64,000 nucleotides of DNA. Origin: Periplaneta americana (lineage: Eukaryota > Arthropoda > Insecta > Blattodea > Blattidae). Of the stretch, positions 28,935 through 59,264 are shown piece by piece. The position numbers and the translations under genes were made by a program. A model generated the notes under the pieces. It did not search any database and was not told where the DNA came from. It saw only the letters and a program-made list of their open reading frames with translations. The number at the start of each line of letters is the position of its first letter. Position 1 is the stretch's first letter. The stretch covers positions 108,350,821-108,414,820 of the forward strand of contig NC_091123.1 of the NCBI RefSeq assembly GCF_040183065.1, written 5' to 3'.

Positions 28935-29232
28935 TTGTTTATGCTTGTAAATTGAATTATTATACTTAATACAATTTTGTATAGCTTAATTAAAATATGC
29001 TTGTAAATTGAATTAAACTCTTTACTATATATTGTATATTTTTCTATAGCTTAACTGATGAATTGTAGTCTACATATATGCTGTAAATTGAATAGTGGTC
29101 TGTATAGCTCAACTGATGAATTTTTTAATGCTTTTAAATTTAATAAAATCTACTTGATATGAATGACATAATTTTGCGTAGCTTAACAAAAGTATGTTTG
29201 ATGAGAGAGAGATGGAACGGAGAAAAATTCTC

Positions 29233-29303
29233 TCCGGCGCCGGGATTTGAACCCGGGTTTTCAGCTCTCCGTGCTGATGCTTTAACCACTAAGCCACGCC
29301 GGA
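29233..29303 (-). tRNA. tRNA-like unit, left arm of locus 1
   Basis: Exact reverse complement of 29443-29513, with the same 7/4/5/5-bp cloverleaf. Not believed to decode: position 33 is C and the arm belongs to a retroposed palindrome. Confidence 0.7.
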
Positions 29304-29442
29304 TACAATCCCGACACCGTTGAGAATCGTCTCAGATTAAGCTCCATCTCTTGGGTTCCCTCTAGTGCAGAGGGCGGCCACTAGAGGGAACCCAAGAGAT
29401 GGAGCTTAATCTGAGACGATTCTCAACGGTGTCGGGATTGTA

Positions 29443-29513
29443 TCCGGCGTGGCTTAGTGGTTAAAGCATCAGCACGGAGAGCTGAAAACCCGGGTTCAAA
29501 TCCCGGCGCCGGA
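29443..29513 (+). tRNA. tRNA-like unit, right arm of locus 1 (GGA-like loop)
   Basis: It folds into a full cloverleaf: acceptor TCCGGCG/CGCCGGA 7/7, D stem GCTT/AAGC, anticodon stem TCAGC/GCTGA with loop ACGGAGA, and T stem CCGGG/CCCGG with loop TTCAAAT. A box (TGGCTTAGTGG) and B box (GGTTCAAATCC) are present, so Pol III transcription is plausible. The formal anticodon GGA would be Ser, but the long variable arm of tRNA-Ser is absent and the invariant U33 is C. It is better treated as tRNA-like than as a gene. Confidence 0.7.
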
Positions 29514-29896
29514 GAGAATTTTTCTCCGTTCCATCTCTCTCTCATCATCTGAGAAAGCAGAATATCTGCATGGAAATATCATATGTACTTCGGTACATCA
29601 AAATAAAATAAATAAATAAAATAAATAAAAAAGTATGTTTGTAAATTGAATTAATCTGTTTACTATGTGTATATTTTTGAAAAACTTGACTGATGAATTA
29701 TATATGCTTTAAATTGACTAGTATAGCTCAACAGATGAATTATTTATGGTTTTAATTTGATATAATTTGCATGATACGCAATATTAATTTTTGTATATCT
29801 CAACTGATTATGCTTTTATATTGAATTAACTTATTTGCTATATGTTACATTTTATAGCTCCACTAATGAATGATTGTTTAGGTTTGTAAATTTAAT

Positions 29897-30868: not shown

Positions 30869-30926
30869 ATGATTGAGGTTTGAGTAAATAGAATTGTAAC
30901 ATTTATATTAGAGGAGAAAAATTCGC

Positions 30927-30998
30927 TCCGGCGCCGGGGATCGAATCCGGGTCCTTGGTTCTACGTACCAAGCTCTCTAACCATTGAGCTACGCCAAA
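30927..30998 (-). tRNA. tRNA-like unit, left unit of locus 2
   Basis: On the minus strand: acceptor TTTGGCG/CGCCGGA (pairs with two G-T), D stem GCTC with GAGA, hairpin CTTGGT-ACGTAGA-ACCAAG, and B box GATTCGATCC. Same loop as the right unit. Confidence 0.6.
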
Positions 30999-31280
30999 GT
31001 TCAATTCGACATGTATTTATGTTATTTTTCTCCTCTAATATCAATTGTTACCATAACAGATATATTCTGTAGGACCAACGTTAATCTTTACGTAGATTCT
31101 TCGCCCAACAGTGCATATTACTTTGGAATCCCGGCCACCAAGTCACTCAATTGAGTGCGCTTCTTGTATAAAGGCAGTTGACTTAATATAAATGTCAACA
31201 TACATGTCGAACTTGGAGTCAGGCCACAAAGGGAAAAAACACTGGAGGAAAGGGATTCGATCCGGTGCTGTGGATTGAAC

Positions 31281-31352
31281 TTCGGCGTAGCTCAATGGTT
31301 AGAGCGCTTGGTACGTAGAACCAAGGACCCGGGTTCGATCCCCGGCGCCAGA
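31281..31352 (+). tRNA. tRNA-like unit, right unit of locus 2 (GTA-like loop)
   Basis: Acceptor TTCGGCG/CGCCAGA (one mismatch), D stem GCTC/GAGC, anticodon hairpin CTTGGT-ACGTAGA-ACCAAG, T stem CCGGG/CCCGG with loop TTCGATC. The formal anticodon would be GTA, but the stem is 6 bp and position 33 is C, so it is not a normal tRNA-Tyr. A and B boxes are intact. Confidence 0.65.
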
Positions 31353-31431
31353 ACGAATTTTCTCCTCTAATATTAATTTTTACCATATATTCTGTAGGAC
31401 CAAAAATATTCATCTTTACGTAGAATTGTAA

Positions 31432-41695: not shown

Positions 41696-41819
41696 GCCAA
41701 CTAGTCACAAATTGCGAAATGTTACTACTGTCTTTTGTTGAGTCAGATACACTTTGCAGGAATATGAAATGTGTAATATTGTCTTATTATTATCACCATT
41801 AAATCGAGAAAAAATTCGT

Positions 41820-41894
41820 TCCGGCACCGGGAATCGAACCCGGGACCTCTCAGCTCTGCGCGCTGAGGGCTCTTTCCAACTGAGCTATACCGGG
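41820..41894 (-). tRNA. tRNA-like unit 1 of locus 3 (GCA-like loop)
   Basis: Acceptor CCCGGTA/TGCCGGA 6 of 7, D stem GCTC/GAGC, anticodon hairpin CTCAGC-GCGCAGA-GCTGAG, B box GGTTCGATTCC. Position 33 is C, so it is not taken as a functional tRNA-Cys. Confidence 0.65.
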
Positions 41895-41940
41895 ATACGA
41901 TCCACGGTGCCGGTCGAACTCCTCTCATAGTGGATCGTGT

Positions 41941-42015
41941 CCCGGCATAGCTCAGTTGGAAAGAGGCCTCAGCGCGCAGAGCTGAAAGGTCCCGGGTTCG
42001 ATTCCCGGTGCCGGA
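41941..42015 (+). tRNA. tRNA-like unit 2 of locus 3
   Basis: Acceptor CCCGGCA/TGCCGGA 6 of 7, hairpin TCAGC-GCGCAGA-GCTGA, T stem and B box intact. The D stem has one change relative to unit 3 (GAGG for GAGC). Confidence 0.65.
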
Positions 42016-42278
42016 ACGAATTTTTCTCGATTTAATGGTGATACTACACATTGACTACTTCATAGTAGTCGTGTTAATATTCAGTGAGGATGGCGAGACC
42101 TCATATAATGAATATGTGATGTATTAAATGTTTATATTTATCACAAACTGTTGTTGAATTTAGCCATAAAGTCATTTAAATATGCTCCCCTGCATATTGA
42201 CTTACATAGGTTAAAATGCAGGAAGTAGGCCGTAAAACAGTACTATGAGAGGAGTTCGACCGGCACCGTGGATCGTGT

Positions 42279-42353
42279 CCCGGCATAGATCGGTTGGAAA
42301 GAGCCCTCAGCGCGCAGAGCTAAGAGGTCCCGGGTTCGATTCCCGGTGCCAGA
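42279..42353 (+). tRNA. tRNA-like unit 3 of locus 3
   Basis: Same unit as above with scattered changes: D box GATCGGTTGG instead of GCTCAGTTGG, and one unpaired position in the anticodon stem (TCAGC/GCTAA). The loop is GCGCAGA. Its trailer repeats that of unit 2 (CTACTTCATAGTAATCGTG). Confidence 0.6.
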
Positions 42354-42473
42354 ACGAATTTTCTCGATTCAATGGTGATAATACACATTGACTACTTCAT
42401 AGTAATCGTGTTAATATTCAATGAGGATGGCGAGACCTCATATAATGAATATGTGATGTATTGTCTTATTATT

Positions 42474-44132: not shown

Positions 44133-44697
44133 TACAGGTTGAACCGTAAGTAATGTCATTTATTTCAGGCGGTTAATCTTTGAAATACTTAAATCAAAAA
44201 CTTTTAATACAATTTTACTTTTTTTTTTTTTTTGCTTTTTTTGTTTTATATGAAACATTTCATAGCGTGTTTTGGGAAAGCCATTGATTTAATTCCCAAT
44301 ATACTGAGTCAGTTTAAGAGAGCAGTGTATTATGATAATATATGATTGAAAGGATTGTAGTTTTGTCTTTTAAATGCGCAGAAATTTGCTCTGAACAAAT
44401 ATAACTTTTCGTTCTGCAAAGGAATTTTACAAGCTCGGATTCAATTTTTACACATTTAAAGGATAAAACTAAAATTATTTCATTCATATCATAATACACT
44501 GTTCTCTTAAATTAACTGAGGATATTGATAATTAAATCAATAGCTTCCCCAAAACACGCTCTGAAATGTTTCATATAAAACAATTTTTATCTCGAAAAGG
44601 AAGCAAATCGAGCAAAATTGCATTAAGCTTTTTTGTTTGAAATATCTCAAAGAATAAACCACTGATATTAATGATATTACCTAAGGTTCACGCTATA
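44133..44697. mobile_element. Foldback DNA element, TACAGG-type, short copy
   Basis: The left end is TACAGGTTGAACCGTAAG and the right end, inverted, is TATAGCGTGAACCTTAGG. The inverted match continues for about 200 bp per arm (for example TTTTATATGAAACATTTC near 44241 against its inverse near 44562). It shares this sequence with 2401-3841. The central part (ATATAACTTTTCGTTCTGCA) matches the left arm of the long copy. No coding capacity. Confidence 0.8.
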
Positions 44698-45377: not shown

Positions 45378-45606
45378 CCGTTCGGAGCAGAAGTTGTGTA
45401 AGTCAAAAATGGGTAATGAGGTTTAAAGTAAAAATTCTGTAAAATACAGCGCAAAGTAGCAATTAATATGTCCTTCGTGCTATGCAGTGACTACTAATAG
45501 TTTAAATAAATTGAATATTAATTGCTACTTTGAGCTGTATTTTACAGAATGTTTACTTTAACCCTCATTACCCATTTTTGACTTCCACAACTTCTGCTCT
45601 CAACGG
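45378..45606. mobile_element. 229-bp foldback MITE
   Basis: The arms 45378-45465 and 45517-45606 are inverted copies with few differences; AAAAATGGGTAATGAGG near 45405 pairs with CCTCATTACCCATTTTT near 45562. The centre is ~50 bp of AT-rich sequence. No clear target duplication. Confidence 0.85.
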
Positions 45607-57622: not shown

Positions 57623-57820
57623 CTTCGTTTTATAATGTCTGAAAGAATATGTAAACAGTCGTGATAGAGAGAGAGGGAAAGGGATAATTGCTATTGAATC
57701 AATGACAGAGGTCTCATTTCAAGCTTGTCTTGAAGTTGGGTGTGGACAGAACGCTTCAAACCGCCCTATTTCTAGATAAGCGTGGAATGAGACCTCTGCC
57801 ATTGGTTCAATAGCAATTAT

Positions 57821-57865
<45 letters not shown>

Positions 57866-57904: not shown

Positions 57905-58506
57905 TTATAAGTTAAATGGGACGAAAGTGAAGTTTTAGGTACCGTACGTGTTGAGATGTTTATGGCTACGTGAAAACTTTTTGCCATTGTATTTCGTGCT
58001 AAGTTGAACTTCCTCATTTTATTTAAATACTATTAAGATTGACATTACGTTCAATTCAGAGCCCACCATTCAAACAGTCGACACCATTCAAGAAATGAAT
58101 CGATACCGTTCAATAATAATCAATAATTCAGTCGATAGATGAAATAATCATGGGTTGAGATTCTAAAGTATAAATTTATGTTCCACAAATTATTTTAGAT
58201 AAATTAATGGAAGCAATTGCAAACTGATCCCTATCAAATTAGAATTAAGATATAAAAAGGAATATGAACAATTTTTTTTTTTTTTTTTTTTTTTTGGAAA
58301 TAATGAGCAACGTAGAGTAATTGAACGAAGACGTGGTTCAACTAGCGCAAAGTTAGTTTCCTTCGTATTCCACTTATACACCTTCAAGTGTTTAAAGCTC
58401 TTTCATCAGTCATACCAACGTAACTTTGGTGGCATACGAAAGTTTCACGTTAGTGCACACTTACATTATCCTTTGCATATACGAATCTGTGACAGGTTAG
58501 GTTAAA

Positions 58507-58616
58507 TTGGATTGGATTGGATTGGATTAGATTAGATTAGATTAGATTAGATTAGATTAGGTTAGGTTAGGTTAGGTTAGGTTAGGTTAGGTTAGGTTAG
58601 GTTAGGTTAGGTTAGG
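58507..58616 (+). repeat. Interstitial insect telomeric repeat, blockwise array
   Basis: Uninterrupted pentamers in three pure blocks: (TTGGA)4 at 58507-58526, (TTAGA)6 at 58527-58556, and (TTAGG)12 at 58557-58616. TTAGG is the ancestral insect telomere unit. Unique DNA follows for over 5 kb, so this is not the chromosome end. Confidence 0.9.
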
Positions 58617-59264
58617 TGTTTGTTATATCTTGCAAATACGAATATGTGCAGAATTTCCAAGCGCTGAAGAAAGGCTGGTGATTTTTGTTTTGATATCAGT
58701 ACTGGTCACTTCCGAAATCAATAGAACTAACTACGCGCTAGTTTCACCGAAGATGTTACGTTAGTCTATATGTTGGATTCGGTAAGTGAAGAAACTTGCA
58801 TCTATTTGCAGTTATAGATTACAATTATTACAAACCGGTTTTTATACTAGCTAATTAATTAGAGAGAAGTTAATTTCATATCAATAAATGTATAACAATA
58901 TTAATAAATGTTCTATAAGCTTCATTACACTTGTTGGGCGGGTCCTGTCAACAATCAGATCACTAGGACACCGCTCAACACTACTACTAGTCACGTTCAC
59001 ACAGCGCTTTTTAACCATCTGGTACATATTTGAGTAACTGTTTTACATGAATTGAAAAAAGTTTTTGATGGTACGTTTTTATGTTTGTAGAAGTTGATTG
59101 GCGTAATTACAGTAGCCTAAAGTTCCATTTTCTGCATTCTTTTGAAGAACATAAACATAAGGAATTCGACAAAGTGTGAAATAAAAAATAACTCAGATTT
59201 GATATTTACAGCATCACAATATTTCCTTTTGATGTATCATATATTGAAAAGTAATAAACATACA

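Follow-up and report, generated by a model that had tools for sequence, protein, structure and literature searches.

How did two tRNA-headed sequences come to lie head to head, as a perfect inverted pair, inside a single insertion? The question is raised by a locus at positions 29188-29640 of a 64,000-nucleotide stretch of Periplaneta americana DNA (C7:108350821-108414820, hereafter the window, with positions counted from its first base), and was followed through the whole genome (3,231,669,367 bases, 91 contigs). The dimer is the rule in its family and not an oddity, and the element is very probably a non-autonomous, tRNA-headed retroelement which integrates as Penelope-like elements (PLEs) do.

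The inverted arms at 29199-29367 and 29379-29547 were found to match at 169 of 169 bases across an 11-nt spacer, CAGAGGGCGGC. Each carries a tRNA-Ser(GGA)-like cloverleaf (predicted with ARAGORN at 29303-29232 on the minus strand and 29443-29514 on the plus strand), both of which were matched to the Rfam tRNA family at 64.7 bits (cut-off 29), and the tRNA 5' heads meet at the centre. This bears out the initial annotation, made from the bases alone, which had described two identical inverted arms with outward-facing cloverleafs. The flanking repeat it reported also exists but is longer than the 10 bp given: a 13-nt direct repeat, AAAAGTATGTTTG, lies at 29188-29200 and 29629-29641, and the target profile of 28 loci of the family suggests a true target duplication of 12 bp (AAAAGTATGTTT), with the extra G doubling as the element's first base and a target site here of AAC-AAAAGTATGTTT-GTA. 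The right arm is actually 245 nt in length (29363-29607), its final 60 nt having no counterpart on the left, and is followed by A-rich sequence at 29608-29628. The host DNA, previously called a tandem array, does contain direct repeats of 35-45 nt with 62-83% identity on both sides, but no array was called there by Tandem Repeats Finder. The features are as follows, where U is the 382-bp unit of the family, S and T are its two outer ends and Pol III is RNA polymerase III.

29188-29199, no strand: left target-site duplication AAAAGTATGTTT, with AAC before it (direct repeat search and 28-locus profile)
29200-29367, minus strand: S arm, an antisense copy of U from about 107 inward to about 321, beginning at the fixed S end GATGAGAGAGAG
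29232-29303, minus strand: S-arm tRNA-Ser-like cloverleaf (ARAGORN; Rfam tRNA, 64.7 bits)
29363-29367, no strand: junction microhomology TAGTG, 5 nt, part of both arms (overlap of the two U alignments)
29363-29607, plus strand: T arm, a sense copy of U from about 305 across the start of the next unit to 167 (L038 1684-1928, 100% to U)
29443-29514, plus strand: T-arm tRNA-Ser-like cloverleaf (ARAGORN, Rfam)
29519-29523, plus strand: TTTTT immediately 3' of the tRNA, which may terminate Pol III transcription (sequence; mirrored by AAAAA at 29223-29227)
29548-29607, plus strand: 60-nt extension at the T end only, counterpart of the PLE 'tail' (S versus T ends at 28 loci)
within 29548-29607, plus strand: TTCG-loop hairpin inside the 60-nt extension (by reading)
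29608-29628, plus strand: A-rich (AAATA-like) stretch from the T end to the right duplication (sequence)
29629-29640, no strand: right target-site duplication AAAAGTATGTTT, with GTA after it

When the genome was searched with the arm, 40 of the 968 first-look candidates were scored, yielding 46 matches spread over 20 loci; a second search with U 176-304, a segment outside the window's arms, added 11 loci (40 of 1563 candidates scored). All 31 loci of this Ser family were fetched and mapped, and the 28 two-headed ones were remapped; as the best matches alone are scored, the sample is skewed to young copies. The true unit was read from one array as 382 bp, repeated head to tail and often tandem in the family, so the 169-bp arm first taken for the unit is this locus's sample of a longer repeat. 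Head-to-head arrays flanked by a duplication were present at 28 of the 31 loci, and the generalisation that tRNA-derived short interspersed nuclear elements (SINEs) are normally single-headed fails for this family. Arms ranged from 39 nt (a fraction of a unit) to 2485 nt (6.5 units). At every one of the 28 two-headed loci one outer end (S) was at U 104-116 and the other (T) at U 167-177, and none had two S or two T ends; the spread in these positions is partly chance match to the target.

The flanking repeat was 12 bp in length at 13 of the 28 loci, 13 bp at 10, 14 bp at three and 15 bp at two, repeats longer than 12 bp being read as bases common to the element end and the target. The base 5' of the repeat was C in 22/28, and AAC preceded it in 16/28 (window frequency 0.017; binomial p ~2e-21), while counting from the left nick position 13 was G in 22/28, position 14 was T in 17/28 and position 15 was T in 19/28. 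The target is AAC^N12^GTT, one symmetric motif cut on both strands. Were this an ordinary tRNA SINE mobilised by a long interspersed nuclear element (LINE) that often twin-primed on two RNAs, the tRNA head, the target duplications and the A-rich end of some copies would be accounted for, and twin priming does yield 5' inversions in L1. Such a SINE is nevertheless an unlikely source of these copies: the S end is fixed and internal in 28/28, the target is symmetric at both nicks and only 1/28 duplications begin with AAAA, whereas in L1 the internal sites of twin priming normally vary and no sequence is duplicated.

Snap-back of the cDNA, in which the 3' end of the first strand folds back and primes its own copying to leave identical arms around a small loop, fits the present locus taken alone, where the arms are identical and the terminal CACTA could pair with TAGTG over an 11-nt loop. 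Self-priming has also been proposed for bdelloid PLE palindromes (in the available text of PMC3846280). Against it, the tail-less S arm was longer than the T arm in 19/28 loci (for example 615 versus 183 nt at L033) and ends at a fixed sequence abutting the target duplication, and some 60 nt of the T arm are missing from the S arm. An S arm longer than the T arm is not a fold-back copy of it, so snap-back is ruled out at those 19 loci, and for the family as a whole we consider it very improbable. Because the S arm is so often the longer, and yet lacks some 60 nt present in the T arm, each cut end seems to prime its own cDNA.

The centres of the dimers gave 28 different coordinate pairs in 28 loci. 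At the 25 clean junctions mean microhomology was 2.56 nt, compared to 0.68 nt by chance (0/20000 simulations reached 2.56), and two of the 25 had none; three junctions with inserted bases were left out of this test, namely L044 (3 nt), L045 (2 nt) and L046 (198 nt). In the last of these the head-to-head junction is filled by 198 nt of other sequence (L046 3636-3833).

It had been suggested that a hairpin RNA was reverse transcribed, that is, that a long transcript of the whole dimer was retroposed as one piece, and the single target-duplication pair enclosing both arms agrees with this. The idea does not hold up: with 28 different junctions at 28 loci, copies do not inherit the dimer as a whole, the tail-less arm is the longer in 19/28, and because the tRNA heads point outward no promoter of the element's own would transcribe the whole dimer. 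We regard it as highly improbable, and the 169-bp duplex RNA which had been envisaged would require transcription through the centre from a neighbouring promoter. What does find support in that proposal is a single retroposition event that left one target duplication, both arms lying inside the duplicated pair. Just as hard to credit is a Foldback-type DNA transposon with long inverted ends made of tandem repeats. Foldback elements do have variable-length inverted ends built of tandem repeats, and fixed-length duplications, but here no centre is inherited between copies, the two ends are different unit positions, long A-rich additions occur at the T end in 6/28 loci (by eye) and the junctions carry microhomology. 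That the layout is an assembly artefact, a fold-back join of the kind suggested by perfect palindromes arising in libraries, has next to nothing in its favour, since it is seen at 28/31 loci, whose junctions differ and whose direct repeats match, and is thus neither chance nor plausibly an assembly fold, and the published P. americana assembly is described as PacBio HiFi in the accessible part of its report (PMC12774602).

Sequence variants were compared between units after trimming the arm ends and removing from L040 and L057 the 5' segments past internal breaks. Of 40 testable variants, 11 were in every covering unit at seven loci (one each at L034, L046, L061 and L067, two each at L039 and L065, three at L060), 25 in a single unit and four in part of the units; 10 of the 11 all-unit variants were present in both arms. 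The S-T distance was 0.0047 within loci compared to a mean of 0.0074 with arms permuted (7/5000 as low). The shared variants and low S-T distance indicate that, for the most part, a single RNA, or else RNAs with a single homogeneous origin, gave rise to both arms and their tandem units. Since the S and T ends are fixed, all centres differ and the all-unit variants at seven loci are nearly always in both arms, the dimer is made at insertion, which was the other origin put forward initially. Arm 5' ends fell at unit 1-10 in 6/56 cases (expected 1.5) and at 93-112 in 10/56 (expected 2.9), these windows being post hoc; a scan test across the 56 ends gave 0.0535 and no clustering is claimed. A longer gapped alignment of L031 into the S arm was left unused, the leader there resembling antisense T-arm sequence.

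The reading we prefer is PLE-type integration. The anatomy of the loci shows both target strands nicked symmetrically, 12 bp apart (AAC^N12^GTT); the top-strand 3' end meets the element at S (unit ~107), while T (unit ~167) is where the bottom-strand 3' end meets it. The head-to-head joints of the arms mostly lie in short microhomology. Each cut 3' end would prime reverse transcription internally on element RNA, at one of two nearby sites, and the two cDNAs would then be joined. At only 382 bp the unit lacks room for a reverse transcriptase, and the enzyme would be supplied by one of the genome's many PLEs. The RNA would come from multi-unit copies, for which the outward tRNA head may act as a Pol III promoter.

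PLEs are plentiful in this genome. GIY-YIG domains were scored for 150 of 7670 first-look candidates, all of them above the cut-off, and several form inverted pairs by coordinates. One locus (L051) has an open 811-aa frame read as a reverse transcriptase followed by GIY-YIG (the latter from a PF01541 match), and three others (L054, L055 and L056) are head-to-head PLE palindromes whose direct repeats measure 15, 12 and 13 nt, respectively. The third is a family B copy forming a near-perfect 3.3-kb palindrome (L056 105-3429; 98.9%) with its 13-nt direct repeat. One end is extended by ~42 nt in family A and ~29 nt in family B, and the family A arm ends (n=10, by eye) fall at two positions, six short and four long. 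The available text of the biochemical study of an Anolis PLE protein (PMC11167929) reports that in vitro it cuts and extends both strands, starting at two adjacent internal sites which bound a 'tail', and that of PMC3846280 gives inverted pseudo-long terminal repeats (pLTRs) with an optional one-end tail as typical of PLEs. The local PLE copies match this published anatomy.

Several observations weigh against PLE-type integration of the Ser element. For the Anolis PLE no strand difference in start site was seen (in the text available of PMC11167929), whereas in the present family one side always bears S and the other T, and the three PLE targets seen show no clear AAC^N12^GTT. No sequence common to the unit and PLEs was detected in L051-L053 or in 20 PLE 3' ends (best E 0.20), drawn from the 7670 GIY-YIG candidates. 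As no examined PLE shares sequence with the element, we infer the enzyme and do not name it. No hammerhead motif was found in Ser, Cys or Tyr sequences by a motif scan which recovered the motif in 5/5 PLE loci used as positive control. Three of the 31 loci are without the full pattern, L036 having a single arm and no duplication, and L063 and L066 showing, by eye, short antisense fragments and no convincing duplication. In addition, four variants at three loci (two at L049, one each at L061 and L067) were in only some units of one arm, and the Tyr-type family described below was two-stranded at only 4/38 loci (45 matches; 40 of 2339 candidates scored).

With regard to the hammerhead, the repeats of families A and B hold the minimal core CTGATGATG...GAAAACG. 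A stricter scan missed the positive control; a looser pattern matched 14/20 PLE 3' ends, and its match in L072 looks like chance. The silence of Rfam does not count, since Rfam misses the PLE motif too. As to the RNA template, the homogeneity of the units would fit a circular molecule and the four partial variants would fit linear or mixed multi-unit RNA. At L049 (3222-5706; 6.5 tandem units) two variants occupy contiguous three-unit blocks, through a mixture of templates or later unequal exchange.

The window contains two further tRNA-type elements.

41777-42472: Cys-type element, S arm (minus strand) from 41791, then two tandem units (plus strand) to 42458 (direct repeats)
41777-41790 and 42459-42472, no strand: 14-bp direct repeats TATTGTCTTATTAT of the Cys-type element (sequence)
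30898-31380: Tyr-type head-to-head element, arms 30898-31005 (minus strand) and 31274-31380 (plus strand), matching at ~93% when inverted, with no target duplication established

A search with the Cys type gave 40 loci (40 of 2587 candidates scored), of which 25 were two-stranded. Outer ends at query 111-119 and 193-203 were seen in 18/25; of the remainder, one locus had ends at 95 and 194 and six paired an end at 188-198 with one at either 27 or 310, a pattern for which we have no reading. At two of the four two-stranded Tyr loci the ends were near 138-139 and 187-192; the Tyr matches are an incomplete set, as they lack the minus arm of the window itself. The Cys-type family behaves like the Ser type at those 18 of its 25 two-stranded loci, and the Tyr evidence is partial.

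A GAATTTT(T)CTC run 3' of the tRNA is common to the Ser, Cys and Tyr types, and in all three a leader 5' of the tRNA can pair with the T-arm/acceptor side (window 42255-42363 and 31252-31360; U 351-382 with 1-76). The predicted leader duplex is -28.4, -24.6 and -33.6 kcal/mol for Ser, Cys and Tyr; among 500 mononucleotide-shuffled leaders the fractions reaching these energies were 0.002, 0.014 and 0.002. The cloverleaf is lost in the predicted fold when the leader is included. The leader may descend from a former head-to-head junction, or it may act as a folding switch. More doubtfully, a whole SINE-like class with tRNA heads (Ser, Cys, perhaps Tyr) could parasitise PLE enzymes, the tRNA module and its T-arm-pairing leader replacing the hammerhead's role and yielding unit-length or circular RNA that repeated rounds of copying would turn into tandem arms; we put this forward as a tentative idea, on balance an improbable one.

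Elsewhere in the window, an interstitial TTAGG/TTAGA array at 58497-58617 represents the insect telomere repeat inside a chromosome, the window being on C7. Telomere repeats embedded in scaffold 7 are reported in the accessible text on the published assembly (PMC12774602), the numbering of which need not equal C7. Further inverted pairs, of 78-97 nt and 83-93%, lie at 44241-44583, 45378-45606 and 57663-57841.

SINEs are textbook LINE parasites and, to our knowledge, are not known to use Penelope-type machinery. If true, tRNA-headed PLE-type insertion extends SINE dependence to a third retroelement class. No published PLE-type tRNA SINE, and no SINE with twin priming and head-to-head copies, was found in a literature search beyond whose reach lay subscription papers and preprints; a butterfly paper, in the part available, merely names short nonautonomous Penelope elements. 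The origin of PLE head-to-head copies is still debated between self-priming and priming by both target strands. The young, near-identical insertions described here, with exact ends, a symmetric target and both-arm variants, show genomically what one PLE did in vitro, and the element is a small, easily tested RNA template.

Compared with known systems, the element shares with tRNA SINEs such as Sbg1-Sbg9 of Blattella germanica (PMC9191728, available in part) a tRNA head, short length and target duplications, and its head has a predicted internal Pol III promoter (ARAGORN, Rfam). Unlike them it is two-headed and often tandem, with variable centres, pre-tRNA sequence within the unit and ends internal to the unit, in place of the single-headed form with a 3' tail, and it has no known LINE partner, although no LINE search was made. 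Metazoan retrozymes are likewise short non-coding tandem units for which PLEs are the proposed mobilisers (in the accessible text of PMC7761336), but the present element has a tRNA head and no hammerhead detected by motif scan. As in the twin-primed 5' inversions of L1, both target strands apparently prime and a head-to-head junction with microhomology results; here, in contrast, this is the rule in 28/31 loci, the end sites are fixed and sequence is duplicated in both arms. The closest resemblance is to endonuclease-positive (EN+) PLEs (Anolis Poseidon, Adineta Penelope and the local families A and B), which have in common with it head-to-head copies, tandem units, two fixed ends with a 'tail', target duplication and a shared motif at which each strand is cut. 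The element differs from these in its tRNA-like head and ~60-nt tail, and because it has no open reading frame for reverse transcriptase and GIY-YIG (382 bp being too short), no detected hammerhead and no homology detected in the PLEs compared, it is not filed as a PLE. From its ends, target, junctions and shared variants, and with a presumed PLE enzyme and Pol III transcription, it is classed as a tRNA-headed, non-autonomous element whose integration is of the PLE type.
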